NCBI GenBank assembly: GCA_026545225.1
Contig: CM048848.1
Coordinates: forward strand, 22,174,806-22,238,805
DNA from: Cornus controversa
Taxonomy: Eukaryota > Streptophyta > Magnoliopsida > Cornales > Cornaceae
Direction: 5' to 3'
Length of the DNA: 64,000 nt
The position numbers and the translations under genes were made by a program. The stretch's first letter is position 1. Every line of letters begins with the position of its first letter. The notes beneath the pieces were generated by a model, which had not been told where the DNA came from, did not search any database, and saw only the letters and a list, made by a program, of their open reading frames with translations. Below are positions 10,029 to 63,030 of this stretch, in pieces.

Positions 10029-10364
10029 ATTTCGATTAATCGAAATGCCCATTTCGATTAATCGAGATGCCCATCTCGATTGATCGAAATGGTTGCGAGA
10101 TTTTGAGGATTTTTAGACTTTATTTCGATTAATCGAAGTCCCATTTCGATTAATCGAGATTCCCATCTCGATTGATCGAAATGGTTGCGAGATTTTATGA
10201 ATTTTTGAGCTTTATTTCGATTAATCGAAGTCCCAATCTCGATTGATCGAAATATTGCAGGTCCAAGTTACCGAGAGGCTGGTTTCTTCGATTGATGGGG
10301 TCAAAATCTCGATTAATCGAGATGGATCTCGATTGATCGAGATCCAATCTCGATTGATCGAGAT
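10029..10364. repeat. Palindrome array, core ATTAAT/ATTGAT, in the A 3' LTR
   Basis: Eleven copies of TCGATTRATCGA occur in about 335 bp, with flanks alternating between TTTCG...CGAAA and CTCG...CGAG. A higher-order unit of about 93 bp (three palindromes plus GGTTGCGAGATTTT) repeats about two and a half times. Between the 8th and 9th copies, 10264-10278 reads CAAGTTACCGAGAGG, a diverged reverse complement of the 15-bp island seen in elements G and J. Confidence 0.9.
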
Positions 10365-12039
10365 TTCTATTCACAGCAAGGTTCAAAAATTGTCCAGACT
10401 TCGTTTCGATGTAATTTCTTTGTTTTAAATTGGAATTGAGCGTGGTTTTTTTTTTAAATTGGGTATTTTTGAAAGATCTATCCAATGGTGTAGGTTTCAT
10501 AATCAAATTCCATCTGTGTAAAAAGTTGAGGTCCAGAACTTAGTGGTTTATATGTATGGAACCAAAGGTGAAAATCATTTGTAAGGGCCATTGATGATCT
10601 AATGCCACTTGAAGGGTGTGCATATAGAATGCTTCCGCAATAGAAATGATTATAATGAGATTAAGGTGTGGGAACTTGAGGTGAAATTACGGATTCACCC
10701 CCATTTCCCTCGCTCCTAACCGGGTGTCGGAAACCGGGGCGTGACAGTTACAAAGATAATCTTAGTTCACTGTAAATTAGCAATTTAGTATATATATTAC
10801 TAGTCTCAGTGCAATGACTGATATTAGCCTGAATTCATTGGCCTACAATTAGACAAAGTAACCTATCATGACCTGTTCCTGGTCAATGTACCTCAACAAA
10901 ACACATTCTAGATAACTGCAGGTCTGATTATGATAATTGATGAGTTAATATGAACATGACAGTGAAATCCAGATAAGTGCAGGAGAAAGAGAGAGAGAGA
11001 GAGGCATTCTGTGACTTCTCGAGATGTAAGGTAAAACCAAGTTTCTTGAGAAAGTACGGTCCCGTTATATACTGGTGGGAATCTGACAACCTCTAGGTAA
11101 ATACTATTGTGTCAAAATGGTTTTGCCTTTGGGTCAACACAGTTAAGCAGACACATTCAACATGTTAACCGGCAGTGAGGTTTGTCTTGTCAAAAAAGAT
11201 ATCCTCACTGTTATGTGTGGAAGTTCCTATCGAGAAGGCTAGAGCCATTTCGAGATATTTCCTCATGCAAGAATTTTTTGCTTATCTTGAGGTGTACATG
11301 TAGTCTTCAGATGGTATTCACCGAAACATCTCTCAATGCTTTGTGGAGTATCATGTGTCCACAAACTTGTGCTTGAGGTTTTTACAATAAATTTTCCAGC
11401 GAGTACACAGTAATTCCTCTATTAATATTTTACATATGAACACCGTCATGCTTTCACAATACATATCTACAAACCCTACATAAGAAACTACAGAACTATT
11501 TCCATGAGACATCCTAGTTATCCTTCATTTCCAATGGTACAAATATCATGCAAACTGTCCCATCAGAAATTCTCCATCTATCCCCACCAATCCAAAAACT
11601 GAAAAGAAAAGGAAGAAAGGATTCAAAACCATCATTGAAAACGTTTCCCTCTCTAATGTGAATGCCGCTGCTAAGAGAAACTCATTAATAACTAATATAT
11701 CATCACTAGAATGACACAAGTAGGAAATTAAATCAAATATAATAATCAAATAGTACTATACAGATTCCTTAGGTTTTCTCGACTCAAACAACTTGTGTTT
11801 CACTTTTTAAAAAAAAAAAATCAATAACCTAAAGGCTATCTCACAACAATTTTTTTACACAATGAATCAATAATGCACAAAAGCAGAGTTAGAATCATAA
11901 CAGAAGAGGTAAACATACGAATTTGACGACCTGTGAGTACAGGTTTCACTGGGCCGAATGTGATAACTACATTATAGTCTATAAATCTTCTGTAACCTCA
12001 CTATTTTCTCTCAATATTTTGTCAACTGACTCAATCAAC

Positions 12040-12145
12040 GAGTGAGATTAGGTTAGGGCTTTCACCGAAGGGAGTGGGATTGGGTTAGGGTTTCGATCGG
12101 TGAGTGGGATTGGGTTAGGGTTTTGATAGTTGAGTGAGATTGAGT
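12040..12145. repeat. Short imperfect tandem repeat containing TTAGGGTTT
   Basis: About three to four units of roughly 33 bp with the shared phrase GAGTGGGATTGGGTTAGGGTT. Two units contain TTAGGGTTT, the reverse of the plant telo-box AAACCCTAA. Single spaced copies rather than tandem heptamers argue against an internal telomere tract. Confidence 0.7.
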
Positions 12146-12416
12146 TTAAATTTGGTTGAGGAACAAAGATGATGGGTTGAGATTTTGGGTAGATCTGAGG
12201 GAATGAATACGTTGATGAAGACTCCGATTTAGAACTTCAAATCCAAAACGATTTCTTCGAATGCACATAAAGGATCTGAAGGAATAGCTTGAAGAAGCTG
12301 AAGGGTGACGATTTGGTAATAGATTCCCTAAAAGGGAAGGATAGGGTTCGAACTTTGGTAACAGAGGTAGGGGTGGTCGAGGATTCCAAAATGGGCGAAG
12401 CAAATCAAGATCATCA

Positions 12417-12549
12417 GATGGCTTCGATTCGAAAGTCTGAAGTGAGAAAGAAAATTGAACGCATGTGAGCTGAGGGAATGTGTATAATCAAATGGCTTCG
12501 ATCGATTAAAGAAAGTCTGAAGTGAGGGAGAAAATTGAACGCATATGAG
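12417..12549. repeat. Tandem duplication, about 74-bp units
   Basis: ATGGCTTCGATTCGAAAGTC at 12418 recurs near 12492 with a small insertion. Both units continue AGTCTGAAGTGAG and AAAATTGAACGCAT. No coding sense is apparent. It may be internal to the transposon ending at 12840. Confidence 0.7.
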
Positions 12550-14731: not shown

Positions 14732-15860
14732 TGTGAGTTACGCGGTGTAGAAACGGTTTAGTTAATTTAGAGTGAAATGCTAATCCTTAAATCTAGAGGG
14801 GGGTGAATAGGTCTTCTTGCCCAATTTTTATGATTGATTAATTACCCACAATTATTATCAATTAAGCATCCAAACCAATCACAAAATAAATCAAGAAAGT
14901 AAGGAAAAGTTAGAGATGACACCGAAAATTTTATGTGGAAACCCAAGACGAGAAAAACCACGGGGGTGAGTCAGAAACCCCAGAGAAACCAATCCATTAT
15001 CTCGAAGCAAAGTACATCAAACTCTGTTCCAGACTCACACCCACTCCACTCTGACATGAACTTGATGTGGAACACCTCAGACTTACAATTGCGACAACAG
15101 GTCCAACTGCTGCAGATTCCCGGCTAACGTCACAATTCTTCCAGAAGGATTGCTGAATGAACAATAATACTCAGCAAGTATTTTGTTCCCTTCATAGTGA
15201 GCTGCTCTTGATCAACTGTGTAGACTGATGATGTCTTGAAGATTCCGTTTATCAGATGAAGAAGAACATCACAACTTAAACACTCCGGGTGTGTGTGCTC
15301 TCAAAAATAAAAATCAATGAAGATTTTCTCTCATAAATTCTTCTTTTAGCTCTCAAAAATATATTCCTGTCTCTAACAGTTAAATCATTGAGTCTCTTAT
15401 GTCCCCTATTTTGATTAAAGCATAAAGAGGTATTTATAAGGTTTAGAATCCTTAGTCTACATGGAAAATAAGTTTAAAACACCTAAGGAAAGTTTTTAAA
15501 GAAATTTTGGTTGACCAGGAAATCAATTTGGATCAAAAAGGAAGTTTCCGCGCACATTAGCTAAGTCGGACCGGTCCTAAAAATTGGGGACCGGTGGGAC
15601 ATTTACAAACACATAGAAATTCTAAAGTCTTGAGAAAAGTCAGACCAGTACTAATACTTGGGGACCGGTGGGACTTTTTAGACATGTTGAGTTTTGAAAG
15701 TCCTGAGAGAAGTTGGACCGGTCCTCATATATGGGGACCTGTGGGACTTAGCAAAAATTCAATTTTTACATTTAAAGCATATTTTTCAAGTCCTAAGCCC
15801 AATAAACTTCAAAACATAGTGTCCTCACTCTCATACTTGTTCTAAGTGATGTCCACATCA
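14732..15860 (-). repeat. 5' LTR of the Copia remnant
   Basis: On the minus strand it starts TGATGTGGACATCA and ends GTAACTCACA, 1,129 bp. A minus-strand TATAAATA lies at 15431-15438. The phrase CTATTCACCCCCCTCTAGA near the end is common in plant Copia elements, from memory. A degenerate initiator-Met primer site, TGAATCAGAGCGGG, lies just inside the element at 14715-14728. No second LTR is present, so the boundaries rest on the TG/CA ends and the primer site. Confidence 0.6.
15566..15748. repeat. GGACCGGTCC palindrome array in the Copia LTR
   Basis: Repeated GGACCGGTCC and GGGACCGGTGGGAC motifs (15568, 15588, 15658, 15715, 15735) are spaced through the U3 part. Between them are AAAGTCTTGAGA (15624) and AAAGTCCTGAGAGA (15697). 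The latter is one mismatch from the reverse complement of CTCTCGGGACTTT, the core of the island found in G and J. Confidence 0.75.
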
Positions 15861-16773: not shown

Positions 16774-16826
16774 GATCGATGCATCGAACTCTCTAGATCG
16801 ATGCATCGCAACTTCGATGCATTGTC
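16774..16826. repeat. Palindrome units with ATGCAT core in LTR I
   Basis: Three units, GATCGATGCATCGAA, GATCGATGCATCGC and TTCGATGCATTG. The same core is used in the H LTR (50020-50090) and in the element C spacer (41412-41597). Confidence 0.75.
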
Positions 16827-17096: not shown

Positions 17097-18445
17097 TGAT
17101 GTGGCCAAATATGTCTTTATTTTTATAACTTACTATTGCCTATCAAAATATAATTTAAACCACTCGCAAGAGAACGAATCTTTGTAGATATGGTTCTTTA
17201 TAGAGGGTATCGATCCCATAAGGAGTTTGGTTGAATTGCACTACGAAGCGAGAATTTCCAATTTAATCCTAAAAACAAAATTTTGGTTTGAGTTTAACAC
17301 TACTTTGTAGAATGTAAAAGCATTAAGTTTAAAACAAGTTATAAAGTTGAGGGAGAAAGAACTAGGGGTGGTTTCCACCTCTAGCCATTTGACATGTTCA
17401 TTTATGTAGCTAATGGGATCTTCTACAAGTATATGCAACACAATGTCATTAGGCTTGTGACCTAGAATGACATATCAAAAGATACATGTGATTTCTAGCT
17501 AAACATAGCCCATCTTTAATAAGCATAGTTTTTCAGCCTATCTATTTATCATACCTTCTAAATGTACCTACATGTGCCCGAACTACCCTATCTTAGCATG
17601 GGCTATATAAGCAAGAAATACCACATTCCATTGAACACCATTACAAAGCCATCATTTATACTTTTTGTGGAAGTTGTAAATGCTGAGCATTCAAAATAAA
17701 GCATTTATACTCTAAGACAAGAGGAAGAAATAAAATCAAATGAATGTATTGAAGAAGTTTACAAGTATTATACAAAACACAAGGCTAAGTAATCAACATA
17801 TACATATAGATCCCAAAATAGCTACAAAATGCACAAGATACATGGTTAGGGGTTCAACCACACCCTAGATGGAAAGTTAGTTGATCATAGTAGACTTGCA
17901 ATCCTTCATGGCTAGAGATGTGAAGCTTCAAAGGTCTAGTTTTAGCTCCCCTTATCTCCTCCCGAAAGTTGTTTCTTCTCTATCCCAAAAACATGCATAT
18001 ATCACCATCCACTTGTGTCCTTGGGTCCCACCTTGCATATAAATATATATATAGTTCACCTACTATATATTTATTCCCCTCACTTAGGTGTTTGAAGTCA
18101 GAAAATCCTCAAAAAGGATGTGCAAAGGTCATTCTTGGAAGCAAGTGGGAAGACAAGTGGGCAAGTGGCAGTCTGCAGAATTTCGATTGTGCGAAATTGA
18201 GGTTTCGCATAATCAAAATCTCGATTGTGCGAAATTGACTTTTCGATTGTGCGAAATACCTTGATGAATTTTTCTTGATTTCTTCACTTTCTCAGCACTT
18301 GATCGGGAACATTGCCCTTCTTTGGGATGAAACCTAATATATAACATAAACACAAAAATGGCATAAAAATATCAAGGTAAACATAAATATGGAATCAACA
18401 TATGCAATTAAGAAGGCATAAATGTGTAACATTTAACGCTTATCA
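17097..18445 (-). repeat. 3' LTR of element J
   Basis: On the plus strand it runs TGATGTGGCC...CGCTTATCA, followed by the polypurine tract complement. It carries palindrome units at 18181-18258 and a short AT run near 18042. It is about 40 bp longer than the other J LTR, partly because that copy has fewer palindrome units. Confidence 0.9.
18181..18258. repeat. Palindrome units with ATTGTG core in the J 3' LTR
   Basis: Four units of the TTTCGATTGTGCGAAAT type, one inverted and damaged (TTTCGCATAATCAAAA). The left flank, GCAGTCTGCAGAA, matches the flank of the G LTR array at 62722, where the core is ATTGAT instead. The other J LTR has only two units (24691-24730). Confidence 0.85.
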
Positions 18446-18460
18446 CACCCCCAAACTTAC
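18446..18460 (-). other. Polypurine tract of element J
   Basis: On the minus strand GTAAGTTTGGGGGTG directly precedes the LTR start TGATAAGCG. The same AAGTTTGGGGGTG is used by element B at 38401. A second copy lies about 1 kb away in the tail, at about 19502. Confidence 0.8.
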
Positions 18461-20205
18461 ATATTGCTAGTCCCTTAGCAATGCAAAATAGAATGATTTA
18501 ATTTATGCAAAAATGGAGCACTTATTAGTCATTAATTGGATAACGGAAGATTTCCCACTCATTTCGTGACAGACAAATGCAACAAGTATTATGGAGCTAC
18601 ACGGATATTTAACAAAAATGAACCTTGAACAAAAATACCAACGCCAACCCTAAAATCCTCTTTGAAAAGTGAACATCCATTATAATGCGTGGCTTATCAT
18701 CAAATTTGGAGAATACAAGAATATATCTATTTTTAGAAGAAAAACTCTTAGAAAGCGCTACACTGTGGTTCATTACCGCAAAGCATGCATGGATGCTTGT
18801 GTGTAGATGACTGTGCAATACTTAAACTCTTTTTGCTTTCTTGAAAGCCCATGTAGCGGTGTTGGGTCAATGACTCCCAAACTAGACGGTTTTGGGGCAT
18901 TAGGTGAAAAGGCACCCTCAAGACTTAATAGCCGAGCTTCTAAGGCGATGAGCTTAAACAAGCCACCCGCTTCAATAAGGCTCAACCTTACACACTTATA
19001 CGCAAAAACTTTATACTTTATGAGGCACAGAGATCCGGTTTATTGAGTGAGAAGGCTTATTGCACAGATGATTTTTTTTTTTCGCAAACAGCCGGAAGAC
19101 TTATTCTTTAAGCTGTTCAAATAAAAATAGAACTTTTACAGGATTCTCCATCAGACCTTACCCAACATCTTAAAATGCATGTGTGCTAGTTTGTGCTGTT
19201 AAGGACAAATTTAGGGCAAGAGCTGCGCCATATTCAAAATTGAACAAAAATGTGGACCATTATAACCTAATACATAACTTGCAAAAGTGCGGGTATTTAC
19301 AATGTCCAAAGCTCCTAACTACCCGCTGCATTTGCCTTGAGCATTAAATGGGATGGTCTTCCCTTAAACAGCATGACATCATGGCTAAAATGCACAAAAA
19401 TTCATTATACTACACAAAAATGCAAAAAAAATTGCATTACAATGTCAATAAGTACCAAAGAATTGAACAATTGCAAGCATATGCCCGTGGTATATCGCAC
19501 ACCCCCAAACTTATATCAAACATTGTCCTCAATGATTGGAAAAGAAGATAAAGGAATGAAATTACCGGGAATGTGGTTACGGATAGAAACAGCAGTCAAT
19601 GACGATCACTGGACCACAAGAGTATCAAAACCTGCATGGATCATCAACAGTATACCACAAGCATTATGGGGAACAAAAATTAAATAAAAGTATAAGGAGA
19701 AAGCAATTATGCAACCATAATGATTTCGTTGCATGTGTAGGATTGTAGGCATCTTTACGCTTCATTCTCAACGCTGAACTACTGGTTCCCAATTTGCTAA
19801 GAGGCATTGACGATAAGATATTGATTATCCAGGCATACTAACGTATAGTATACAAAGGGGCTACCTTTCTCTATTAAAGCCATACTGTGTTGAAGCAATC
19901 TCAACAGTATTGGGAATTGAAACCAGGCTTTAATAAATGAAAATCATCAACTATATCGTGCAAATGCCAAGTATTAAATTGGTACTACATACATAGTCAA
20001 AGCATTGGAGATAGCTATAGCGATGCCAAATGTAAAAGAAAAACAGTGAGAAAAAGTATAATGAAACAAAAAGATATTCCATAGATATGCAAAACATGTC
20101 CAGTACAAAGTAAAACGATGGAATACATAAAAAAAAATTCGAAGACATAGCCTACTGAAAATAAATACAAAACTAAAACTGAAAATCAACTAGAAAATTG
20201 CTAAA
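18461..20205 (-). other. Long non-coding tail of element J between ORF3 and LTR
   Basis: No credible reading frame. It holds a T-rich run (19071), a second polypurine-like block with CATTGTCCTCAATG beside CACCCCCAAACTTAT (about 19500-19535), and phrases shared with the tails of B, C and G. Such long tails are usual for Athila-type elements. Confidence 0.7.
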
Positions 20206-21495
20206 CTAATCAAGGATGGGTGGTGGTGGAGGGGGCTCGGTGGGTGGTGCAGAAGTCGAAACGGCGGCCGGGACGTGCAACAGAGTTTGGAGGTCCTGTC
20301 GGAACAACCTGAACTCATCAAGCAATGCTCTCTGACCCTGAGTCAGATATGTAATATCCCTTCGCATGGCTGCCATCTGGCTCTGAGTCAGACGGACATG
20401 CTCATCAAAACCCTACTACAGCCTCTCTACATCTATCACCAAGCAGGAGTATCCGGTGGCCAGTATATCGAACTGCTCTTGGCTCAGACCGGTTGAATCC
20501 TCCTCCTCATCGTCCTCATCTGAGGGCTCACCCTCTATAGGCTCATCTTCCTCTACCAATGCAAGGGGATCATCCATGTCCATGTTCTCACGCTCCTGGC
20601 CCCAGCTGTCACGCCCCGTTTCCCTCGCTCCTAACCGGAGCGAGGGAAACGGGGCATGACACTGGCGTTGCTGGTGCTCCAAAAGCCTACGGACCCAGAC
20701 CCACTAAGTGTGCTAGAAATGGGGAGGCGGTCCGATCTGGATATTCGTAGAACTGAAAGGGATATTGGCCTCCCTCAGAAAGGTCGTGACCAGGTAGGGG
20801 AACGGTAGCTGCCAAGTAGATGCTCGCTTATTCGTCTTCCGGACGAGAGCATCCCACACTTTATACATCTGCCCCCATATGAGAAATAGGACAGAAAACC
20901 ATGTGCCAGTGTGAGCTGCATATAAGCAGTGAAGAAGATCTCCCCGCCTCTCCGCCACATGTCCTAGAGGGCAGGCGTTCTTGATAAGAACAGTATCCAA
21001 GAACCATAAGTCAGTCGGGCACATGGATTTGCTTGTGCAATTCTGATTGGGGGTGGTAAACTCCCTATCGCATATATCCATGACCATGGAGAAAATGGTG
21101 GTGTAGGCTGGTAGGGACTCCCTGAAAAGCGGACAGCCATCCTGACTGACCGTATCCGGAGGTTGTAAGTGAGGGCAGCCTATAAGCTGCGCTATCCGGC
21201 TCGCTGTGATGGTGATCGTTGTGGCTTCCACCATAGTCTCTAGAGTATCGGGCATGGTGCACGAGTATGTCATGTACTCGTAGAAGACCTGCACCAGCCT
21301 ACTATATACAATGTCAGATGGCGGATGGAGCAGTCTATCAAGCCGGCATCGTCGCAACTTTGCTACAGCCCATGCTGTGTCCCGGCGCCTCTCAAACTCT
21401 GCGGGGTCAAAAATATGCTCGAGATGAAATCCCCGAGTGCGCTAAGCTCTACCCGGTATATCTCGAATCTGAATACCAGTCTTCACACGAGCCAT
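20206..21495 (-). pseudogene. ORF3 of element J (Athila third ORF, unknown function)
   Basis: Starts MARVKTG at 21495 and ends EPPPPPPILD at 20206. It shares RRDTAWAVAKLRR, RLVQVFYEYMTY, WFLDTVLIKNACPLGHV and LIWGQMYKVWDALV with ORF3 of G, and looser versions with B and C. An acidic stretch and a Pro-rich tail follow the conserved domain. Athila and Calypso elements place an env-like gene here; from memory this sequence resembles what databases call a putative plant transposon protein. No signal peptide or membrane segment is evident. A TAG near residue 18, a stop at 20713 and a hairpin insertion at 20608-20661 break it. Confidence 0.75.
20608..20661. repeat. Near-perfect 54-bp hairpin inserted in J ORF3
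   Basis: TGTCACGCCCCGTTTCCCTC pairs with GAGGGAAACGGGGCATGACA across a short CTAACC-containing loop, with one mismatch. The G copy of ORF3 lacks it at the aligned position. The right-hand side resembles the last 48 bp of the element A LTR (CCCTCGCTCCTAACCGG...GGGGCGTGACA). No target duplication flanks it; CCAG/CTGG outside extends the inverted repeat. It could be a relic of an A-like LTR end or a tiny foldback element. Confidence 0.7.
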
Positions 21496-23380: not shown

Positions 23381-23609
23381 TTGTCACTTGTCCAATTTTG
23401 CTTGGATAAATCCTAGCACATAATTTCTATGATATTTTGAGCCTCAGATCAGTTATATAGGTAGAGAATATGTAATAATAAACATACACACAATTCTTGT
23501 AAAAGATAGCATATTTTTAGAATTTTAGAGAAAGAAACTGAAGTTCTAGAGAGGGAAAGCTTTAAAGAGGGCTTTGTAAGGCCTTGAAGACCATTTTGAA
23601 CATGGGACC
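23381..23609. repeat. Copy of the external target flank inside element J
   Basis: CACTTGTCCAATTTTGCTTG through CATGGGACC matches 16875-17096 outside the element with a few percent difference by eye. It includes the GGACC duplication directly before the second LTR. The join to integrase falls at CATGAC/ACTTG with about two bases of shared sequence. Confidence 0.9.
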
Positions 23610-30231: not shown

Positions 30232-30236
30232 ATTTT

Positions 30237-38400: not shown

Positions 38401-38413
38401 AAGTTTGGGGGTG
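38401..38413 (+). other. Polypurine tract of element B
   Basis: AAGTTTGGGGGTG immediately precedes TGATAGGCG, the start of the 3' LTR. Confidence 0.85.
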
Positions 38414-50019: not shown

Positions 50020-50090
50020 TTGATGCATCAAACTTATAGCTTCAATGGATTGAAGCTTCAATGCATCAAAGTCCCTACTTCAATGCATCG
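50020..50090. repeat. Palindrome units, diverged ATGCAT core, in the H LTR
   Basis: TTGATGCATCAAA, TTCAATGGATTGAAG, CTTCAATGCATCAAAG and TTCAATGCATCG. Arms have drifted from TTCG to TTCA or TTGA, but the two-sided symmetry is kept. The position matches LTR I (16774-16826). Confidence 0.7.
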
Positions 50091-51087: not shown

Positions 51088-52000
51088 TGATGTGGTCGGA
51101 ACTAAATTATATTGTAAGCTTAATTTTGCCCTTTTTATCAAAATATAATTTAACCACTCGCAAGAGCACGAATCTTTGTAGATAAGGTTCTATATGGAGG
51201 GTATCGATCCCACGAGGACTAGTCGCAATTGTCTTACGGGAAGATTAATTCTACTTTAATTCTAAAAATAGATTTTTGGTTTTGTGTTTAAAAACTATTG
51301 CATGAATGAAATGACAAGAAAATTAAAGAGTTTAAAGTTGGGAGAGAGAACTAGGGTTGGTTTCCACCACTAGCCATTCACATGTTCATAAGTGTAGCAA
51401 GCATGGGATTTATTAATTAAATGCCTAACAATGTCATTAGGCTTGTGACCTCAATGACATATCAAAAGATCAATGTGTGTGCTAACCTATCATAATCCAT
51501 CTTCAACAAGCATAGCTCTTCAACCTAACTACCTACCTAATTACTCTACTCTCTAAGTGAACACTACATGCATCCAAACTACCTTGTCTTGGCATGGTCT
51601 ATACAAATTAACATCACACATTCAATTAAATACCATTATCTAGCCATCATTTGCACTTCTTGTGGAATATGCAAATGTTGTTCATTCAAGTGACAAAATC
51701 TACTCTAAGACAAGAATAAATTCCAAATCAAATGAATATATAAAAGAGATGTATTTGTCTACATAATCACTAGGCTAAATAATCAACATTTAAGTATAAA
51801 TCCCAAGAGCTACAAAGATGAACAAGTTTACATGGCTAGGGGTTGAAACCAACACCCTAGTAGAAGAGTTAGTTGCTCATGGTTGCCTTGCACCCTTCCA
51901 TTGATGAAGAGAATGAAGCTTCTTGGTCTGGTTCAGCTCTCTCTCTTCCTCTCCCGAAGGTCTCTCCTCTGATCTTCTTTGTTGCTTGAGAGATATATGA
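51088..52000 (-). repeat. 3' LTR of element G, truncated
   Basis: Matches 61610-62522 at a constant offset of 10,522 bp. The match ends after AGATATATGA. The remaining 508 bp (start of U3 in element orientation) and the polypurine tract are deleted. Confidence 0.93.
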
Positions 52001-53427
52001 CAAAACATTATCACAAAACATTCATGATTGCTCATGCGCGGATGACCGTGCAATGCTTAGCTCTTTTTGCTTTCTTGCAAGCCCATGTAGCGGAGTTGGG
52101 CCAATGACTCCCAAACCAATTGGTTTTAGGGCATTAGGTGAAGAAGCACCCCTCGGACTTAATGACCGAGCTTACAAGGCGATGAGCGTAAGCAAGCCAC
52201 CCGCTTATTATTGCTCAACCTTACACACTTATACGCGAATATTCCTTGCTTTGAGGCATAGAAATCCAGTTTATTGAGTGAGAAGGCTTATTGCATATTT
52301 TTCTCTTTTTTTTTTTTTTTTTTTTACAACAACCAGAAGAACTTATTCTTTAAGTTGTTCAGATAAAAACAGAAATTTTCAAAAATTCTCCCTCAGACTT
52401 ATACCCCACAATTTAAAATGCATGTGTGCGAATTTGTGCGGTTAAGGACAAATTTAGGGCAAGAACCGTACGCGCTCGAATTTGGACAAAAGTGTAGACC
52501 GTTCTAGCCTACAATAAAGCTTGCAAAAGTGCGGGTATTTACAATGTTAAAGTTCTTAACTACCTGCTGCATTTACCTCGGACATTTATTCGAATGACTT
52601 CCTTTAAAAAGCAAGACATCATAGCAAGTATGCAAAAAATATCAAGAAAAAGAAACTGCTCTACAATGACACTCAATATAATGACTGAACATTGCATGCA
52701 TATGCAAGTGGTATAGCATACCGCACCCCCAAACTTATATGCAACATTGTCCTCAATGTTTGGACAAGAAGAACAAGGAAAGAAGTTACCGGGATGGCAG
52801 AATGCGAGAAAATGTTAGTCCACAGTAGCGGTCATCGTGGAAATAAGGAAAACCTGCACGGAACACCAACTGGATACCACGAGCATTAAAAGGAACAAAA
52901 AGTAGATAAATAGAACATAAATGAAAGAATTATGCGCAAACAGATAATGCCAATATCACTGTATATCTAAGGGTCTGAACTGGTGTTTCCCAATTGTCTA
53001 AGATGTCTATGCGACAAGATATTGACTATCCAGGCACGCTAACGTATAGCACGCAAAGGGGCTGCCTTTCTTTATTACCGCCATACTGTGTTGAAGCAAT
53101 CTCAACAGTATTGGGAATTAAAACCAGGCGGTAATAAACGAAAATCATCAACTGAATCGCATATAACAATTAGACAAGTGGTACTACATACATAGTCAAA
53201 GTATAGAGAACAAGTAGATTGACGGAAAGTAAAAATAAACACAGTAAAGATAATACATGGCAGAAAAGAAAATATAAATGTATTCCATATAAATGAAAAT
53301 GAGTTTCAGTACAAGTGTACATGCAGGTGGAATACTCAAAAAGAAACTAAACATGGCCAACATGGCCTACGAAAAATAAAGAAAGGAAAATACAGAAAAT
53401 AAAACAGAAAAGATGAATAAAATGCAG
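52001..53427 (-). other. Tail of element G between ORF3 and LTR
   Basis: Non-coding. A T run is at about 52307-52325. CACCCCCAAACTTATATGCA with CATTGTCCTCAATG (52724-52760) repeats the polypurine-like block seen in J and B. The left end is cut by the deletion that removed the true polypurine tract. Confidence 0.75.
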
Positions 53428-54481
53428 CTACTCGAGGGCGGGTGGTGGTGGTGGCTCGGTGGGAGCAGAAGTGGAGGTGGAGGATCGACCTGCGAACAGG
53501 AACTGCAGGTCCTGTCGGAAGGCTCAGAACTCGTCTAAGATCGCTCTCTGGCCCTGTGCCAGAGAAGAAATGTCTGACCGAATACCTGCCAACTGACTCT
53601 GCGTCACCTGGACGTGCTCGTCAAAACTCTGCTGGAGCCGCTCTACGTCAGCCGCCAGGCAGGAATAGCCCATCGCTAAGATATCATGCCGCTCTGCAGC
53701 GACATCCATCTCCTCCTCCCCCATCTCCTCGTCCTCTGACGCAGCCTCTGCTGGCTCGCCCTCATCCGCCTCCACTGGGGCATCCATATCGACATCGTCT
53801 GGTGGATCACCCTGGTGGTCCTGTCGCTCTAAGTGTCGCCTCACCCGCTCCCACTGAGTAGATGTGAAGCGGGTGGGCGGTGCCAACCGGACATCAGTCT
53901 GACTGACCAGAATACTGGCACTGCTAAGAAAAGCGGCGATCAGGAAAGGGAAGGGAAGCCGCCAACTCGCTGCTCTCCTCTTCCTCTTGTTGACGAGGCC
54001 ATCCCAGACTTTGTGCATCTGCCCCCAGATCAGCGATGGGACAGAAAACCAAGCGCCCGTATGGAAAGCATAGAGGCAACGGAGGAGGTCGCCCCTGCGC
54101 TCGGCCACGTGCTGCAGCGGACACGCGTTCTTGAGGAGAACGGTGTCCAGGAACCAATATCTGCTCGGGCACATCGATTTGGACGTGCAGTTGTGACTGG
54201 GCGTGGTAAACGCCCCTCCACACATGTCCATCACTATCGAGAAGAGCATAGGTCATGTGCTCATAGAAGACCTGCACTAAGCGCTCGTGTGCCATGTCAG
54301 TAGGAGGCACACATAGTCGGTCGAGGCGACGCCTCCTGAGCTCGGCAACAGTCCACGCGGTGTCGGGACGCCTCTCGAACTCGGCTAAGTCGAAAACCTG
54401 CTCCGGGTGGAACTTCTGAGACCGGAAGGCTCGCCCGGGCACGTCACGAACAGCACCGGCGGCGTTCTTCACCCTCACCAT
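53428..54481 (-). pseudogene. ORF3 of element G (unknown function), GC-rich, internally deleted
   Basis: Starts MVRVKNAAGAVRDVPGRAFR at 54481. It shares FERRPDTAWTVAELRRRRLD, then HMTYA, after which a deletion (about 60 codons by comparison with J) shifts the frame. The second frame resumes at 54249 with FSIVMDMCGGAFTTP, CPSRYWFLDTVLLKNACPL and SLIWGQMHKVWDGLV, then an acidic stretch (SEDEEMGEEEMD), a heptad-like segment, a stop at 53524 and a Pro-rich end TEPPPPPALE. The region is visibly richer in G+C than the neighbouring pol. No membrane or signal segment is seen. Confidence 0.8.
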
Positions 54482-55693
54482 GGTCTCGGAACAGTCTGCA
54501 CTTGATTCCAAAAAGTACGTAAATAAAAGATGAGTAAGAAGAAAGTTAAACTACTAATAGACTAAAAGAATAAAAATAAAAATGAAGTCCTAGTCCATGG
54601 TACTGACAAGAATGCGAAAAGTCGCTCTCGAAGAGGCAATGTGAACGGGTGCAACCGAAACGAAGGTGCCGCGGTTACACACCGTACACTGAGTGTTTGA
54701 AACAAAGAAAATGCCAAATCTCACTCCTACATGAATTCCTACCCCCGAAACCCCCAAAATCTCGTTACAGATATCGCAATCGCAACCATCCACCCCAACA
54801 TGATCTAACTATGTTTATTACGCCGTAAAACTATCAAAAATGGCGAGAAAGTAAACAAAAAATAGCCATGCATCACGTACCTCATGAGGAAGAAGATGAA
54901 AGGCTCAACCGAAGAAAACTCCACTCACAACCGCGAAGAGAAGATCGCGCAAGTGCTAGCGGCGGCTTCGGACTGCGTCGGATGGCGGCGGATGATCGGG
55001 AATGGTAGATCGAGTGCTCGGGAGTGCTTGGAGAAGGTTTGGATCGCACAGAGGGAGAGAAGAATTCGGACAGTTTTTATAAACTGGGAGGGAAGCCCAA
55101 CGGTTTAAATAGATTTTTGGCTCACGTGCAGGCTCCGCTTGCATCTCGATTGATCGAGATGTGCATTTCGATCAATCGAAATTTTGATTGATCAAAATCT
55201 TGCTTCGATCAATCGAAACCAGCTTCGATGGATCGAGATTGTCTCTTCGATCAATCGAGAATTCCTTCACTGAATCACCCTCTTACTTCGATCAATCGAA
55301 CATTTAATTCATTCAATCGAAATTTTATTTCGATCAATCGAAATCCCATTTCGATCGATCGAAATGTTCGATGGATTGAAAACCTATCGAAGTGCAATCG
55401 AAGAATACTACCTCTCGGGACTTTGGAATTGGAAAATCTCTGCAATTTTTCGATCAATCAAAAATGAGATCTCGATCAATCAAAATTTTGATTGATCGAA
55501 GTCTTTGTTTCGATCAATCGAAATGCTCAAAAACAGTCAGCTTGAGTTATGCTCCAGGGACTTGGATATTTGGGAATTAGATACTACATTGCTTAGATAC
55601 ACACCTACTTTGGATTAAAGGGACATCATGGAAGAGTGATAGTTACCATGGCTTCGCCACCTTACACGTCTATGGCGCAACGTCCGTATCGGC
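54482..55693 (-). other. Spacer of element G between pol and ORF3
   Basis: Non-coding, with the palindrome array at 55143-55528. Confidence 0.7.
55143..55528. repeat. Palindrome array, ATCAAT/ATTGAT core, in the G spacer
   Basis: About 14 units such as TTTCGATCAATCGAAAT and CTCGATTGATCGAG. The island CCTCTCGGGACTTTG is at 55411-55425, preceded by ATCGAAGTGCAATCGAAG as in J (ATCGAAGTGCTATC). A weaker second copy, CTCCAGGGACTTGG, is at 55552-55565. The core agrees with G's own LTR array (62731-62845). Confidence 0.92.
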
Positions 55694-58456
55694 TCACGAG
55701 TCAAAATACACGGGATCCGTCAAAGTGACGACATCCACGTATTCGGTGGTGACTTGGTCATCCACGCACACTTTTAAGCGCTGCCCGTTTACTTTGAACA
55801 TCGAGCCATCTTTCAAGTCCTTCAATTTCACCACTCCGTGGGGAGCGACGGAGTTAACCAAAAATGGACCATCCCAACGGGAGCGAAGTTTTCCGGGAAA
55901 CAAATGGAGGCGTGAGTTGTACAACCAAACTTTTTGGCCCGGCGAAAATGTTTTAACTCGAATATTATGATCATGAAAGGCTTTGGACTTTGCCTTATAG
56001 ATTTTCGTATTCTCATACGCGTCATGTCGCAATTCTTCCAATTCATTTAATTGAAGCTTTCGATTAGAACCAGCCTTTTTCATGTCAAAATTGAAAGTTT
56101 TGGTGGCCCACATAGCTTTATGCTCCAATTCAACCGGAAGATGGCACGCCTTGCCATAAACCAACCGATAAGGTGACATTCCAATGGGAGTTTTATATGC
56201 GGTTCGGTATGCCCATAATGCATCCTTTAGTCGCAATGACCAATCCTTCCGGTCGGGCCGAACAGTTTTCTGAAGAATGTTCTTAATCTCCCTATTGGAT
56301 ACTTCTACTTGGCCACTAGTTTGAGGATGGTATGGGGTGGCTACTTTGTGCGTGACGGAGTATTTGAGAAGCAAGGTTCGAAGGAACCGGTTACAGAAAT
56401 GTTTACCTCCGTCACTGATGATGGCCCGAGGCGTACCAAACCGGCTAAAAATGTTAGCTTGAATGAATTTAACCACGACTGCGTGATCATTGGTTTTGGT
56501 AGCAACGGCCTCTATCCACTTAGATACGTAGTCCACCGCCACAAGTATGTACTCATGACCAGTAGAGGGTGGAAATGGTCCCATGAAGTCAATGCCCCAC
56601 ACATCAAATATTTCAATGATAAGAATAGGGTTAAGAGGCATCATGTCCTTCCGAGACATCGCGCCAAGGCGCTGACATCGCTCACAAGAGCGGCAGAATG
56701 AATATGCATCCCGATGAAGTGTCGGCCAGAAAAATCCGCATTGGAGAATTTTTGCTGCGGTTTTCTTAGCACTAAAGTGCCCCCCACAAGCGAGTGTATG
56801 ACAAAACTTGAGAATGCTTTGGAATTCACTGTTGGGCACACACCTTCGAATTATTTGATCGGGGCAATATTTGAACAATTGAGGATCGTCCCAATAATAT
56901 GATCGTGATTGGGAGAGAAAACGATCCTTCTCTTGCTTGGTCCAAGAAGATGGTATCTTACCGGCTGCCAAGTAATTAACCACATCTGCATACCAAGGGA
57001 TACTCTCTTGAGAGATGACAAAGAGTTGTTCATCCGAGAAGGATTCACAAACTGGAATGGAATTATGGAGGGATTCAACAAGAATTCTAGACAGGTGGTC
57101 AGCTACCACATTTTCAGTTCCCTTTTTGTCTCTAATCTCAAAATTGAACTCCTGCAATAAGAGTATCCATCGGATCGACCTAGGCTTGGTGTCCTTTTTG
57201 GCCAAAAGATGCCGGAGGGCAGCATGGTCCGAATAGACAATGACCTTTGAACCCAATAAATAAGCTCGAAATTTGTCCAATGCAAATACTACCGCAAGCA
57301 ATTCCTTTTCCGTGGTGGTATAATTGATTTGAGCCTCGGAAAGGGTTTTACTTGCGTAGTAGATTACATGTGGCAGTTTGTCTATTCGTTGCCCTAAGAC
57401 AGCACCCATGGCATAATCGGATGCATCACACATAATCTCAAATGGGAGAGCCCAATTTGGAGAGATTAGAATTGGAGCAGTTGTAAGCATGGTGCGGAGT
57501 TTTTCAAAAGCGTTAAGGCACGCTTCATCAAAGGTAAAGCAAGACTCTTTTTCAAGAAGGCGACACAAAGGCCGAGAGATTTTGCTAAAGTCTTTGATGA
57601 AACGGCGATAAAAGCCCGCATGCCCAAGGAATGAACGAATCTCTCTCACCGTTGATGGTGGAGGAAGTTTGGAAATGAGTTCAACCTTGGCTTTGTCAAC
57701 CTCTATTCCCCTCTTAGACACAATGTGCCCTAGGACAATACCCTCTTGAACCATAAAATGGCTCTTTTCCCAACTAAGAATTAGGTTGGTCTCTTGACAT
57801 TGTTTGAGAACACAAGTTAGATTTTGGAGGCATGATTCAAATGAAGGCCCAAAAACGGAAAAATCATCCATAAACACTTCCAAGAATTTTTCCACCATGT
57901 CCGAGAAGATAGACATCATACACCGTTGAAAAGTCACCGGTGCATTGCACAACCCAAAGGGCATGCGTCTATAAGCAAATGTGCCGAAGGGACATGTAAA
58001 GGTGGTTTTTTCTTGATCCCTCGGGTCTATAGCAACCTGATTATAGCCGGAATATCCATCCAAAAAACAATAAAAACTTTGCCCGGCTAATCTCTCCAAT
58101 ATCTGATCAATGAATGGGAGGGGGAAGTGATCTTTCTGAGTGGCTGAATTTAATTTCCTATAGTCTATGCACACTCTCCAACCCGTGGTGGTGCGTTGGG
58201 GAACTAATTCACCCTTGTCATTTGTTTGCACCGTAATACCTGACTTCTTTGGAACCACTTGAGTGGGACTAACCCACTTGCTATCAGAGATGGCGTATAT
58301 GATTCCCGCATCTAGTAACTTCACCACCTCCTTTATGACAACGTCCTTCATATTTGGATTTAATCGACGTTGTGCCTCCCTTGAGGTCTTAGCATCCTCT
58401 TCCAAGTGTATGCGGTGCATACAAATAAAAGGATCTATTCCCTTGAGATCTGCCAC
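55694..58456 (-). CDS. pol of element G: RT, RNase H, integrase (intact 920 codons)
   Basis: Same frame as gag; the 920-codon count starts from an internal Met after the nonsense codon at 58472-58474. [21 protein letters not shown] and active site FMDDFSVFG at about residue 200. RNase [36 protein letters not shown] and VADHLSRI at about 365-480. Integrase: zinc-binding region with CRSCERC near 600, D-D-E core [16 protein letters not shown] and QVEVSNREI, then the conserved C-terminus. All catalytic residues are present, which fits the low LTR divergence. Without read-through of the TAA the enzymes would not be made as part of the Gag-Pol polyprotein. Confidence 0.93.
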
Positions 58457-58471
58457 ACTCCAGCCTATTAC

Positions 58472-61327
58472 TTATTTGTGCTCTTTGAGCACCTTAAGAA
58501 GCTCCATCTCTTGATCATTGGTAAGATTGGAAGCAATAATGACTGGAAGGGTCTCATTAGCGCCCAAGAAAATATACTTGAGTGTAGCCGGTAGGGGCTT
58601 GAGCTCAAGTTGTGGTGGGGAAATTAAAGAAGGAGTTTGGGAAGTTTTGGACAAAGGGGGCAAGGGTTCTCCCGGAACTCTCCACTTAGGCAAATCCATG
58701 ACAGTATTAACATCGAGCATGGAATTGACTTCACATATGGATTGCTCAATGTCAAAATCATCACAGTTGAAGTGATTTAGGCATGCCTCTAAAGGGTCCT
58801 TGAAAAGAATAGAAGGTAGCGCTTCTTGAACAAGGTCTTCCACTACATTGACACAAAAGCACTCACTTTCGTTATCGGATGTGTGGTGAGAAGCATTGAA
58901 GATGTTCAAATGGACTTTCATATTCCCAAAAGAGATGTCCATCACTCCGGTACGGCAATTAACGCAAGCGTTTGCCGTGGCCAAGAATGGACGACCTAGA
59001 ATGATAGGGATATGATGCTTCAGATTTTGGACCGGTTCCGTGTCAAGGACTATGAAGTCCACCGGAAAATAGAATTTGTCCACTTGAATGATGACATCCT
59101 CAATGATGCCACGTGGTTGCCTCACCGAACGGTCGGCAAGTTGTAACACAACCGTGGTATGCTTGAGTTCCCCCAAACCTAGTTGTTGGTAAACTGAGAA
59201 TGGAAGCACATTGACACTAGCCCCTAAATCAAGAAGTGCTTTTTCAAAAGATTGATTTCCGATGGTGCACGAAATGGTCGGAGCACCCGGATCTTTGAAT
59301 TTAGGAGGGGCATGGTGTTGGAAAATGGAGCTTATGTGCTCAGTTAAGAGGACTTTCTTAGGAACATTATTCCTAGATTTGCGCTTTTGAGTGCACAAGT
59401 CCTTCAAGAATTTTGCATAGGAGGGAATTTGTCGAATAGCATCAAGGAGAGGGAGATTGATCTTTACTTGTTTGAAGATCTCCATCATGTCTTGGATTTT
59501 CTCTCCTTGCTTCCCGAAATGAGAAGGTTCCTTCAATCTTTGAGGAAAAGGAACCGGAGGTTCATAAGAGGTGTCAAGATTTGGAATCGATGACGACACA
59601 ACTTCACTTGCCTTTCCTTTTGGATTTGAAGGGGTATTTTGCAAATTTGGATTTAACGGAAACGATTTTGGATTTAATTGGGATTCTTTTGGATTTTTAG
59701 GTTGCTCTTGGAATTCCTTTCTCTCTTCCTCCCCTACCTTGGAGTTAATGATTTTGCCACTTCTCAAGGTTGTGATTGATTGAACTTGCTCCGGAGGAGC
59801 ATTACAAGTTGAAGATGATGGATCTTCAATCATATGCACACCTTTGGGGTTCACCACCAGTTGACTCGGCAACTTACCTTCCTCTCTTCTATTTAAGGCA
59901 TTAGCTAGTTGCCCGATTTGAGCTTCTAACCTAGCCATAGATTGAGCATTGGCTTCAAGCTTAGAGATTGATTGAGAGTGAGTTTGCAATAAGCGGGTAT
60001 TGGCCTCAAGATTGCTTATCACTCTTTCTTCAAAGCTTTGGCTTCTCGGAGGAGGTGGTGGTTGTTGGTAATTAGATCTTTGATTGTAAGGTTGAGGGTT
60101 TGGCCTATAATGAGGCTGTTGAGATTGGGAATTAAAAGAACTTTGCCCTTGGAACGAGGGACTTGATTCTTGATTCTTCCATGAGAAAGCCGGATGGTTC
60201 TTGTACCCAGGATTGTACGTGTTCGAATATGGATCATTCAGTTGTTTAGCATACAAGGCATTCGCTTGCTCTTGAGCATAATCGGGAGATTGCCCGGCAA
60301 TAGGACAATCTCGCACGAAATGTGAAGTACTATAGCAAAACGAACAACCTTCCTGATTTTGGACAGATTGGTTTGGAGTAGGCAGCCCATTTTTCATGAT
60401 TAAATCCATTTTTTGGGTTAGGGCTTCTACTTGCATGGCAACCTCATCTACCCGTGAAATCTCATGCACGCCTCTACAAGGTTGGGTGGCCTTCCCTTTC
60501 CTAGTGGAGGAGCGTTGAGCTGAATTGTTGCTTAGGGTTTGAAAAAGTTTCCATGCCTCATCGGGGCTTTTCGAAAGATATCCACCCCCACACGCGGAGT
60601 CTATCATTTGTCTATGTTGCTCACTCACCCCATCATAAAAACTTTGCACTAGCTGCCATTTTGGGATAGCATGATGCGGACAAGATTTTAAAAGATCTTT
60701 TAACCTCTCCCACGTCTCATGGAATTGTTCTTGGTCAATTTGGGTGAATCCGGTGATTGCTCGTCGAATATCACTTGTCTTACCCATTGGGAAGTATTTT
60801 TTCAAGAACTCTATTTGCATCTCCGCCCAAGAATGGATTGAGTTAGGTTCTAAGGAGTTGAACCAACTTCTAGCTTTATCTTTTAGGGAGAAGGGGAACA
60901 TGCGCAGCTTTAGATCATCCTCCGTAAAGTGTGGTACACGAATAGTGGAACACACGGAAAGGAAGTAATCTAAGTGCCGGTACGGATCCTCATTAGGAAG
61001 ACCGTGGAAGCTATTAAGAAGATTGATGGTGGAGGACTTTATTTCGAATTGATTTGCCGCTACATCTGGAAATTGAATACATGAAGGTACTTCAAATGTA
61101 GTCGGAAGGTAAAAGTCCATAAGCAACTCTCCTTGAGGAGGTGGTGGTGGACGTGGTTGTTCATGATTAAAAGGAGGTAGACCGGGAGGTTGTCTCTCAT
61201 TTGGATCCATGTTTTCAGTCCTAGGTAATATAGGGTCCCTAGAGGTTCCTCTACGTTGTCTAAGTGTTCGTTCAAGTTCAATGTTACACGGAAGCAAAGG
61301 AAGTGACAATGACCGTCTACCTAGCAT
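58472..61327 (-). CDS. gag-protease of element G (951 codons)
   Basis: Starts MLGRRSLSLPLLPCNIELER, the same start context as D. The Gag core lies at about residues 95-260 (FSLKDKARSWFNSLEPNSI, FLKKYFPMGKTSDIRR, IDSACGGGYLSK). A CCHC knuckle, CSFCYSTSHFVRDC, is near 328. A Gln/Pro/Asn-rich linker and a short heptad segment (about 430-470) follow, then protease with LLDLGASVNVLPFSVY near 699 and IILGRPFLATANAC. The frame ends at a TAA (58472-58474) 18 bases before the first Met of pol, in the same frame. Element B has a Glu codon at the aligned place, so this is a nonsense mutation rather than a designed boundary. Confidence 0.93.
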   Translation of the reverse strand: MLGRRSLSLPLLPCNIELERTLRQRRGTSRDPILPRTENMDPNERQPPGLPPFNHEQPRPPPPPQGELLMDFYLPTTFEVPSCIQFPDVAANQFEIKSSTINLLNSFHGLPNEDPYRHLDYFLSVCSTIRVPHFTEDDLKLRMFPFSLKDKARSWFNSLEPNSIHSWAEMQIEFLKKYFPMGKTSDIRRAITGFTQIDQEQFHETWERLKDLLKSCPHHAIPKWQLVQSFYDGVSEQHRQMIDSACGGGYLSKSPDEAWKLFQTLSNNSAQRSSTRKGKATQPCRGVHEISRVDEVAMQVEALTQKMDLIMKNGLPTPNQSVQNQEGCSFCYSTSHFVRDCPIAGQSPDYAQEQANALYAKQLNDPYSNTYNPGYKNHPAFSWKNQESSPSFQGQSSFNSQSQQPHYRPNPQPYNQRSNYQQPPPPPRSQSFEERVISNLEANTRLLQTHSQSISKLEANAQSMARLEAQIGQLANALNRREEGKLPSQLVVNPKGVHMIEDPSSSTCNAPPEQVQSITTLRSGKIINSKVGEEERKEFQEQPKNPKESQLNPKSFPLNPNLQNTPSNPKGKASEVVSSSIPNLDTSYEPPVPFPQRLKEPSHFGKQGEKIQDMMEIFKQVKINLPLLDAIRQIPSYAKFLKDLCTQKRKSRNNVPKKVLLTEHISSIFQHHAPPKFKDPGAPTISCTIGNQSFEKALLDLGASVNVLPFSVYQQLGLGELKHTTVVLQLADRSVRQPRGIIEDVIIQVDKFYFPVDFIVLDTEPVQNLKHHIPIILGRPFLATANACVNCRTGVMDISFGNMKVHLNIFNASHHTSDNESECFCVNVVEDLVQEALPSILFKDPLEACLNHFNCDDFDIEQSICEVNSMLDVNTVMDLPKWRVPGEPLPPLSKTSQTPSLISPPQLELKPLPATLKYIFLGANETLPVIIASNLTNDQEMELLKVLKEHK

Positions 61328-61585
61328 GCATTACCAATAGAACAACACCTCAATATACAAGATAAACAAATATATACAAAAGAATGAATGAATTCAAACC
61401 ACTAATTTTAGGCGTTATACTCACAAAGGGTTCCAAGTTTGCTTCTCTTAGATGCCCGTTATGTTGTATACCTAAAATCAAGAAATTTGAGAAATAAAGA
61501 CAAAATATGTACAAAAGAATGAAAGAATTTCTAGCCTAAGAATTAAACCAGATTTAATCTTCCAAAGGCGACAATAAAACCGTAG
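61328..61585 (-). other. Leader of element G between primer site and gag
   Basis: Non-coding, about 260 bp. The equivalent leaders in D and H share phrases such as ACTACRGTTTAATTGC with each other. Confidence 0.6.
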
Positions 61586-61603
61586 TCCCCGGCAACGGCG
61601 CCA
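61586..61603 (-). other. Primer-binding site of element G
   Basis: On the minus strand TGGCGCCGTTGCCGGGGA follows the 5' LTR end, identical to element B and matching the tRNA-Asp 3' end used by Athila elements. Confidence 0.9.
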
Positions 61604-61609
61604 AAATTT

Positions 61610-63030
61610 TGATGTGGTCGGAACTAAATTATATTGTAAGCTTAATTTTGCCCTTTTTATCAAAATATAATTTAACCACTCGCAAGAGCACGAATCTTTG
61701 TAGATAAGGTTCTATATGGAGGGTATCGATCCCACGAGAACTAGTCGCAATTGTCTTACGGGAAGATTAATTCTACTTTAATTCTAAAAATAGATTTTTG
61801 GTTTTGTGTTTAAAAACTATTGCATGAATGAAATGACAAGAAAATTAAAGAGTTTAAAGTTGGAAGAGAGAACTAGGGTTGGTTTCCACCACTAGCCATT
61901 CACATGTTCATAAGTGTAGCAAGCATGGGATTTATTGATTAAATGCCTAACAATGTCATTAGGCTTGTGACCTCAATGACATATCAAAAGATCAATGTGT
62001 GTGCTAACCTATCATAATCCATCTTCAACAAGCATAGCTCTTCAACCTAACTACCTACCTAATTACTCTACTCTCTAAGTGAACACTACATGCATCCAAA
62101 CTACCTTGTCTTGGCATGGTCTATACAAATTAACATCACACATTCAATTAAATACCATTATCTAGCCATCATTTGCACTTCTTGTGGAATATGCAAATGT
62201 TGTTCATTCAAGTGACAAAATCTACTCTAAGACAAGAATAAATTCCAAATCAAATGAATATATAAAAGAGATGTATTTGTCTACATAATCACTAGGCTAA
62301 ATAATCAACATTTAAGTATAAATCCCAAGAGCTACAAAGATGAACAAGTTTACATGGCTAGGGGTTGAAACCAACACCCTAGTAGAAGAGTTAGTTGCTC
62401 ATGGTTGCCTTGCACCCTTCCATTGATGAAGAGAATGAAGCTTCTTGGTCTGGTTCAGCTCTCTCTCTTCCTCTCCCGAAGGTCTCTCCTCTGATCTTCT
62501 TTGTTGCTTTAGAGATATATGAGATATATGTGGCTTTTGGTGCTTTTAGGCTTCTTTTCTTCCTTTGGGGCCCACCATATATATATATATATCATTATAT
62601 ATATCTCTTGTATCAAGAAGGCCCCCAAAAGTCTTGTTCAAGTCAGATAATCCCCCTAAGTCGTGCAAAAAGGGGGATTTTGTTGCAAGTGGGAGAGCAG
62701 GTGAGCAAGTGGCCAAGTGGGCTCTGCAGAATTTCGATTGATCGAAATTGAATCTCGATTGATCGAGATTTCGATCAATCGAAATGAGATCTCGATCAAT
62801 CGAGATTTCGATTAATCGAAATCAACATCTCGATTGATCGAGATGCCTTGGCTGCATTTCCTGATTTCTTCTCTTGATTGCGAAAAGCTTCCAATTTTTG
62901 CTCCATTTACTCCAATACCTGCAAAACATCAAAAACACAAAAATACCGTAAACATATCTCGGTAAACGCAAAAACGGAACCAACGTATGCAATAAAGAGG
63001 GTTCAAATGCATAGAATTGAACACTTATCA
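61610..63030 (-). repeat. 5' LTR of element G, full length (1,421 bp)
   Basis: On the plus strand it starts TGATGTGGTCGG, ends CACTTATCA and is followed by CTATC. It contains an AT microsatellite (about 62576-62600) and a palindrome array (62731-62845). It shares blocks with the J LTR (TAGGCTTGTGACCT, CTACTCTAAGACAAGA), so G and J are related subfamilies. Confidence 0.93.
62731..62845. repeat. Palindrome array, ATTGAT/ATCAAT core, in the G 5' LTR
   Basis: Six units alternate TTTCG...CGAAA and CTCG...CGAG arms, in the order ATTGAT, ATTGAT, ATCAAT, ATCAAT, ATTAAT, ATTGAT. The left flank GGGCTCTGCAGAATTTCGAT is nearly that of J at 18170, where the core becomes ATTGTG. Confidence 0.92.

Follow-up and report, generated by a model that had tools for sequence, protein, structure and literature searches.

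Arrays of short palindromic units and a common linker in Athila-like and chromovirus retrotransposons of Cornus controversa

Described systems and how the arrays compare

The closest described counterparts of the arrays reported here are the repeated motifs of Sireviruses, which are palindromic, lie in long terminal repeats (LTRs) upstream of the TATA box and also 5' of env, and form CpG islands (Bousios et al. 2010, PMC2829016). According to the part of that paper used here, the env promoter could not be conclusively identified. We analyzed a 64-kb stretch of Cornus controversa DNA (contig CM048848.1, positions 22,174,806 to 22,238,805; hereafter the window), which consists mostly of nested LTR retrotransposons, designated by letters below, and comes from a genome of 771.7 Mb. 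Arrays of short palindromic units occur there in Athila-like elements, both in the LTRs and in the spacer between pol and a third open reading frame (ORF3), and in chromovirus LTRs.

As far as the same part of the Sirevirus paper goes, the two sets of arrays are alike in having many dyad-symmetric units with intervening bases per element (six in the LTR and 15 in the spacer of element G), in having further copies 5' of an env-like gene (here, the pol-ORF3 spacers of G, J, E, and C), and in being CpG dense. Sirevirus motifs precede the LTR TATA box; among the LTR arrays from genome copies, 12 of 13 have an AT-repeat tract about 120 to 150 nt past the array, judged by eye, and few have a strict box. 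The differences concern sequence and host. Sirevirus motifs carry a CGG-CCG signature, except in Tnd-1, belong to Ty1/copia, and are called Sirevirus specific, whereas the present units read CGAT..ATCG or TTTCG..CGAAA, belong to Ty3/gypsy, and show a linker common to two lineages and dialects that hold for whole arrays. Because the places are alike but neither the CGG-CCG signature nor the Ty1/copia setting applies, we regard the present arrays as a variant of the Sirevirus kind. The original prediction, made from the sequence of the window, held that no such cassette had been described; this does not stand, given the much similar layout in PMC2829016. No description of such arrays for Ty3/gypsy was found in open-access full text.

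Two further systems are instructive, to the extent covered by the portions of the sources used. The VANC targets of VANDAL transposons are also noncoding tandem arrays of short motifs that change together between related elements, and VANC6 motifs are present in an unrelated element as well (PMC5735166, PMC10398659). Unlike the present arrays, they lie in DNA transposons, are not described as palindromic in those portions, and have a known element-encoded binding protein. Partner pararetroviruses resemble our elements in that noncoding regulatory sequences are homogenized between different elements by recombination, but they belong to another element class, and the word "palindrome" is absent from the main text of that paper (PMC5491270). 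By analogy, VANC targets and pararetrovirus partners are precedents for co-changing motif arrays and for regulatory sequences common to elements. Grande, in the limited material at hand, is similar in carrying an extra ORF and tandem repeats after pol. A 2013 paper on Grande reportedly describes an accessory gene with its own promoter, to go by the title alone. Surveyed elements of the Grande type, in the portion of the survey used, have mainly antisense ORFs and family-specific repeats, unlike the sense ORF3 found here. Thus, palindromic boxes before LTR and env promoters are known, and the Ty3/gypsy setting, the linker common to lineages, and the dialects are new.

Enrichment, core dialects, and the common linker

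Perfect TCG-N6-CGA sites number 49 in the window, against a mean of 3.2 and a maximum of 9 in 50 dinucleotide shuffles; 43 of them fall inside ten array regions totaling 2,140 bp, which were delimited after the motif had been seen. The local count of perfect sites was reached by none of 500 shuffles in the arrays of the A LTR (10027..10366, plus strand; 11 units), the left J LTR (18181..18256, minus; four units), the J spacer (22130..22374, minus; eight units in alternating orientation and one other), an A-like solo LTR (26689..26913, minus), the G spacer (55144..55523, minus; 15 units besides a pseudo-unit in the linker), and the G LTR (62732..62843, minus; six units), and by one of 500 for the pair of ATGCAT-core units in the I LTR (16776..16822, plus). 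The C spacer array (41413..41600, minus), which has an ATGCAT core and is partly decayed, was equaled by 20 of 500 shuffles for perfect units and by none with one mismatch. The decayed two-unit array of the right J LTR (24692..24729, minus) has no perfect unit; with one mismatch allowed, it yields three units, a count that none of 500 shuffles reached. The H LTR (50020..50090, plus) gave zero units in the shuffle-tested motif count, holding only TTGATGCATCAA-like remnants with ATGCAT. Of the carriers named in the original prediction, A, the solo LTR, J, G, C, and I are upheld, with the reservation that H has remnants only and the right J LTR lacks a perfect unit.

Genome-wide, TCGATNNATCGA occurs 52,962 times, compared with 856 for a reversed control pattern, and TCGATTGTGCGA 3,821 times (1,968 and 1,853 per strand), compared with 10. 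The predicted arrays are thus real and far above chance, and none of the three outcomes named in advance as contrary to them was seen, namely, counts at shuffle level, cores varying within arrays, or confinement to this locus.

The unit measures 16 bp. Among inter-unit gaps shorter than 40 nt in the window, 39 of 40 are 16, 17, or 20 to 22 bp; in 26 arrays from genome stretches, 120 of 128 are 16, 17, or 19 to 22. Since the half-sites of one unit are 11 bp apart from center to center, units spaced by 22 place half-sites at even intervals of 11 bp. Heat-shock elements were dropped as a candidate because of a misfit in the half-site grid. The units had been predicted to have fixed arms and a variable core, which is half right. 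The second position of the arm can be T or C, the E units have GGG/CCC arms, and many cores retain AT..AT, so that CGAT..ATCG is often more constant than the arms, the ATTGTG form being the exception. CpG density is 4 to 10 per 100 bp in eight of ten arrays, 3.6 in C, and 1.2 in the decayed H array, which looks to have decayed by CpG to TpG change; the flank of the G spacer array is nearly as rich, at 6.4.

Cores were classed as AT (ATYRAT) or TG (ATTGTG-like, including ATTATG, ATTGTC, ATCGTG, and ATCATG in the purity count). The arrays of A (ATTAAT/ATTGAT) and those of the G LTR and spacer are of the AT dialect, and those of the left J LTR, the J spacer, and the solo LTR (ATTGTG-type cores) are of the TG dialect. 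As predicted, cores are uniform within arrays: 32 of 33 arrays have a single class, compared with a mean of 5.9 and a maximum of 12 under permutation. Arrays with at least two classed cores comprise 264 units (172 AT, 59 TG, and 33 other). Most loci were chosen by AT matches and five by TG matches, and one 200-kb block taken regardless held one array. The sole mixed array (L137:5382-5558) is degenerate, with TG and AT cores and a linker-like stretch, and perhaps represents an intermediate or older family. Arrays of different dialects sit at homologous positions, both in A (AT) and the solo LTR (TG) and in G (AT) and J (TG). Each of the two dialects is found in both lineages, independently of the linker. 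LTR and spacer dialects agree within G and within J; they also agree in the AT loci L132, L133/L134, L136, and L139, provided that two arrays separated by 4 to 4.6 kb represent the LTR and spacer of a single element.

The arrays of A, the solo LTR, the G spacer, and the J spacer agree in order and orientation, with two blocks of units flanking a linker that is not palindromic (CAAAGTCCCGAGAGG in G and J, within a fuller stretch, TCCAAAGTCCCGAGAGG, in G; ..CCGAGAGG.. in A). The linker spans 10251..10289 (plus strand) in A and, by sequence search of the window, 26743..26781 in the solo LTR, 22240..22279 in J, and 55400..55438 in G (all minus). With the J or A linker as the query, the other three are the best matches in the 64 kb on both strands; with the G linker, the third match ties with a chance match, and with the solo-LTR linker, a chance match ranks second. 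All six pairs are more similar than 5000 shuffles. Elsewhere in the genome, the linker is present in the chromovirus LTRs L162, L164, L165, and L166 (TG), in altered form in L138 (AT), and in the spacers L132, L133, L136, and L139 (AT) and L163 (TG); these loci were assigned to lineages by reading their flanks, the automatic flank flags being true only for L166. Near-matches to a linker 16-mer (up to four mismatches) number 24 in 337 kb, eight of them inside arrays, which make up 2.7% of that sequence.

Over the 18 nt before the CCGAGAGG anchor, chromovirus and Athila-like linkers have an identity of 0.577, a value that none of 2000 column permutations reached, against 0.249 for permuted columns. 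Across lineages, identity is 0.537 for linkers of the same dialect and 0.599 for different dialects; within lineages, the values are 0.857 and 0.707. This ungapped comparison covers 13 of 15 rows (L138, with its altered linker, and the mixed array L137 were dropped); A is its sole chromovirus row of the AT dialect, and the linkers of L162 and L164 are identical. A comparison with free end gaps was discarded for an invalid null, its shuffles scoring like the data, and a comparison of unit-masked arrays gave no chromovirus-Athila similarity signal because the mask covered the linker. On the strength of the 18-nt cross-lineage and dialect identities, we conclude from sequence comparison that the array module has a common origin in both lineages; dialect seems to have changed within each. 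The linker, which was absent from the original prediction, bears on two of its claims. Common descent of the array had been called unlikely, and the linker argues for it; transfer between elements had been listed as an option, and a linker common to chromovirus LTRs and Athila-like spacers supports module transfer rather than convergence alone.

Promoter-like boxes and the possible role of the arrays

In spacers, a TATA-like box starts 28 to 35 nt past the last unit in eight of ten copies, including L163. It reads TATTTAA at 32 nt in all five G-type copies, TATAAG at 29 nt and TATAAA at 28 nt in J-type copies, and TATAAA at 35 nt in E, whose array (34971..35078, plus strand) consists of GGG..CGATCGATCG..CCC units and is followed, past the box, by ORF3. 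A start of TATTTAA or TATAA[AG] is expected 0.014 times per 12-nt slot. The window examples are TTATAAG at 22095..22101 in J, about 29 nt past the array, and TATTTAA at 55105..55111 in G, 32 nt past it (both minus). A sense-strand TATA-like box lies within 140 nt of seven of the eight Athila-like arrays of the window, against 0.13 expected. Chromovirus arrays have CCTATAYA 25 to 26 nt away, on the antisense side, in all five arrays with flank sequence; the window holds seven such sites on both strands. No sense-strand TATA-like box follows either chromovirus array of the window.

Given the arrays, their spacing, the uniform cores, the common linker, and the near-constant distance of the spacer box, all of which are observed, the arrays are probably promoter-proximal operators for a dimeric DNA-binding protein, a linked array having moved between lineages. 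We infer the promoter role, the dimeric protein, the transfer route, and selection. Under this model, the arrays would serve in upstream activation or in countering silencing. A dimer would bind each unit of 16 bp through its two half-sites, which are separated by about one turn of the helix, and neighboring units would follow at intervals of about one and a half or two turns. The LTR promoter of Athila-like elements would have an array in front of it, as would a second promoter, internal to the element and driving ORF3, and chromovirus LTRs would have a related array. Recombination or template switching would have carried the array, linker included, from one lineage to the other, between chromovirus LTR and Athila-like spacer. 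Within an array, unequal exchange would keep cores alike, and reliance on one binding protein, or on allied ones, would have fixed one of a few dialects, with change running parallel in both lineages. The similar layout in Athila-like elements and the related chromovirus arrays, with their common linker and dialects, suggest that regulatory modules can move from one retrotransposon lineage to another inside a genome, co-evolving with a factor that acts in trans.

In a more specific version, which we hold to be doubtful, the palindromes at the ORF3 promoter and in the LTRs would be bound by the ORF3 protein of Athila-like elements itself, or by a factor allied to it; chromovirus LTRs would have captured this operator, and dialects would switch together with the specificity of the factor. 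ORF3 is a candidate by position only. If true, one regulatory code would be common to unrelated selfish elements, and chromovirus LTRs would live off an Athila-like factor. The 772-Mb genome, in which sites number in the tens of thousands, allows a direct test of whether dialects track an element-encoded protein.

Several observations weigh against the operator model. The forms of the spacer box were picked after looking, TATTTAA and the AT tract being recognized only after the strict regular expression had been applied. The C and L135 spacers lack a box by the expression used for spacers; in L135, TATTTGAAA can be seen by eye at about the corresponding position. Applied to 20 genome arrays, the strict expression finds a sense-side box in only three and an other-side box in two. 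As for the Athila-like arrays of the window, six of eight have a plain TATAWA and only three of eight have a box within 80 nt; that count used an expression made after looking, on related elements, with the right J LTR left out, and the G box it includes is absent from G's genome copies. An opposite-side box lies within 140 nt in four of ten window arrays. A promoter role is doubtful for chromoviruses because their box is on the antisense side (in the sense direction, it precedes the array) and because the probable TATA box of the LTR, placed by eye at about 8236, lies some 1.8 kb upstream of the array. The purity count set aside the 33 units of other core types and was made without E and the ATGCAT arrays (C, I, and H), which are outside the AT and TG classes, and the 33 arrays counted are related copies, mostly picked by AT or TG pattern matches. 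The predicted ORF3 structure (predicted local distance difference test score, 52) is too poor for a search of DNA-binding folds. Finally, arm pairs on the sense strand (235 standard, 24 G-U, 18 A-C, and 8 other) do not favor selection on RNA stems but are too few to decide between DNA and RNA; at arm position 2 (19 T-A, 7 C-G, 7 C-A, and 4 T-G), symmetry is weak (Fisher P = 0.063).

Alternatively, the arrays could be a hairpin source or target of small RNAs: read-through RNA would fold and be diced, the host would silence the elements, and arrays would persist as by-products or decoys. Six array stretches do fold strongly (z scores of -4.0 to -9.7), and small RNAs of maize Sireviruses are enriched at palindrome clusters (Bousios 2016, as related in the part of PMC10760457 used here). 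Yet any palindrome array would fold, stems are not clearly kept at arm position 2, and fixed spacing and TATA distance are left unexplained. We give this reading a minor share of the probability, and it can coexist with the operator model. RNA kissing loops had also been proposed, with 5-bp stems and 6-nt self- or mutually complementary loops serving as dimerization sites for packaging. The cores ATTAAT and ATGCAT are self-complementary, and ATTGTG alternates with its complement CACAAT in the J spacer; such complement pairs are expected anyway, since any site appears as its complement when the other strand is read. C-A mismatches occur in the stems about as often as G-U pairs and thus do not favor the proposal, several arrays precede promoter-like boxes, and we find it extremely improbable.

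Pure convergence, in which unrelated elements separately gained sites for one common host transcription factor, would agree with the different palindrome before the TATA box of the window's Copia element and with the GGG/CCC arms of E. It is weakened by the non-palindromic linker common to chromovirus and Athila-like arrays, and we regard it as unlikely. It is very unlikely that a short palindromic repeat without any function simply expanded by neutral processes, in the manner of a satellite. Tandem duplication is visible in the A array, where 10029-10160 is repeated at 10122-10253 with 90% identity, and H looks decayed; but arrays hold the same place in diverged copies and are among the best-conserved LTR parts. 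Two diverged chromovirus LTRs share 39 to 55% identity per 150-bp bin over most of their length, against 62 to 73% across the array and the next 150 bp (the first 150 bp reach 72%). The CpG richness of eight of ten arrays also speaks against neutral expansion, though the G-spacer flank is nearly equal.

Host elements and additional observations

Profile matches in the array carriers give the domain order of Ty3/gypsy rather than that of Ty1/copia Sireviruses. The lineage names Athila and, for element A, Tekay are those we presume to apply. The chromovirus A (2228..10746, plus strand; target-site duplication [TSD] GTTAC) has a 2,891-bp 3' LTR (7856-10746) and a truncated 5' LTR (2228-3356), which match at 98%. 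Its Pfam domains are RVP_2, RVT, RNaseH, and the integrase zinc-binding domain, with a Tf2-1 SH3 domain and a chromodomain below its cutoff. A stretch of about 150 bp following the A array (10370-10560) is among the best-conserved parts of the two diverged chromovirus LTRs (73%). The A-like solo LTR (26178..29171, minus; TSD CCAAG), delimited by LTR matches and reading of its ends, has its array in the same place as A.

G, J, C, E, I, and H all read as Athila-like, so that the separate lineages are Athila-like, chromovirus, and one Copia. The expectation that arrays are common to chromovirus and Athila-like elements is borne out; that of unrelated families holds for these two lineages, which are far apart, but there are fewer families than letters. 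G (51088..63030, minus; TSD CTATC) has gag-pol frames at 55694-61330 and ORF3 pieces at 53524-54550, and its LTR array is present in the right LTR only, the left-LTR match stopping before it. J (17097..24918, minus; TSD GGACC) retains a pol remnant, the spacer, and ORF3, and is related to G (71 to 79% in DNA matches). Judging by sequence matches, J apparently sits within the LTR of I and G within that of H. Element E (about 29271-39936, plus) is taken to be the B of the original prediction. There, B and the Copia LTR were said to have looser versions of the unit: B does, with its GGG/CCC units, but the Copia palindrome is a different one. Two copies of GGACCGGTCC (15568..15724, minus) lie about 129 nt before a TTATAAAT box on the sense strand, a pattern nearer that of Sireviruses, in the part of the Sirevirus paper used and by layout only. 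The GGACCGGTCC palindromes stand in three loose tandem units, with a TATA-like box at 15439 and a C-rich tract near 14800.

In IMG/VR, the two-unit AT pattern matched three contigs, two being TCGA microsatellites and one having a different site; the TG pattern was too lax there, matching at least 120 stretches. Contig L002:5021-5700 contains TCGATTAATCGA three times; in at least two cases, the site forms part of TGTCGATTAATCGACA, which is a different palindrome but has an identical center.

ORF3 homologs numbered one protein in a first search and four in a later one; one is from Cornus florida. The open segment of J ORF3 (20716..21441, minus) matches PF20167 ("Transposase_32") below cutoff. 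By eye, the leader between the J box and the ATG of ORF3 contains GTAAGT and TTGTAG, a possible sign of a 5' intron. The J ORF3 region also holds an inverted repeat (20607-20661, minus; arms of about 25 bp) that resembles a chromovirus LTR end (..GGGGCGTGACA); it may be what is left of chromovirus sequence that became joined to an Athila-like element.

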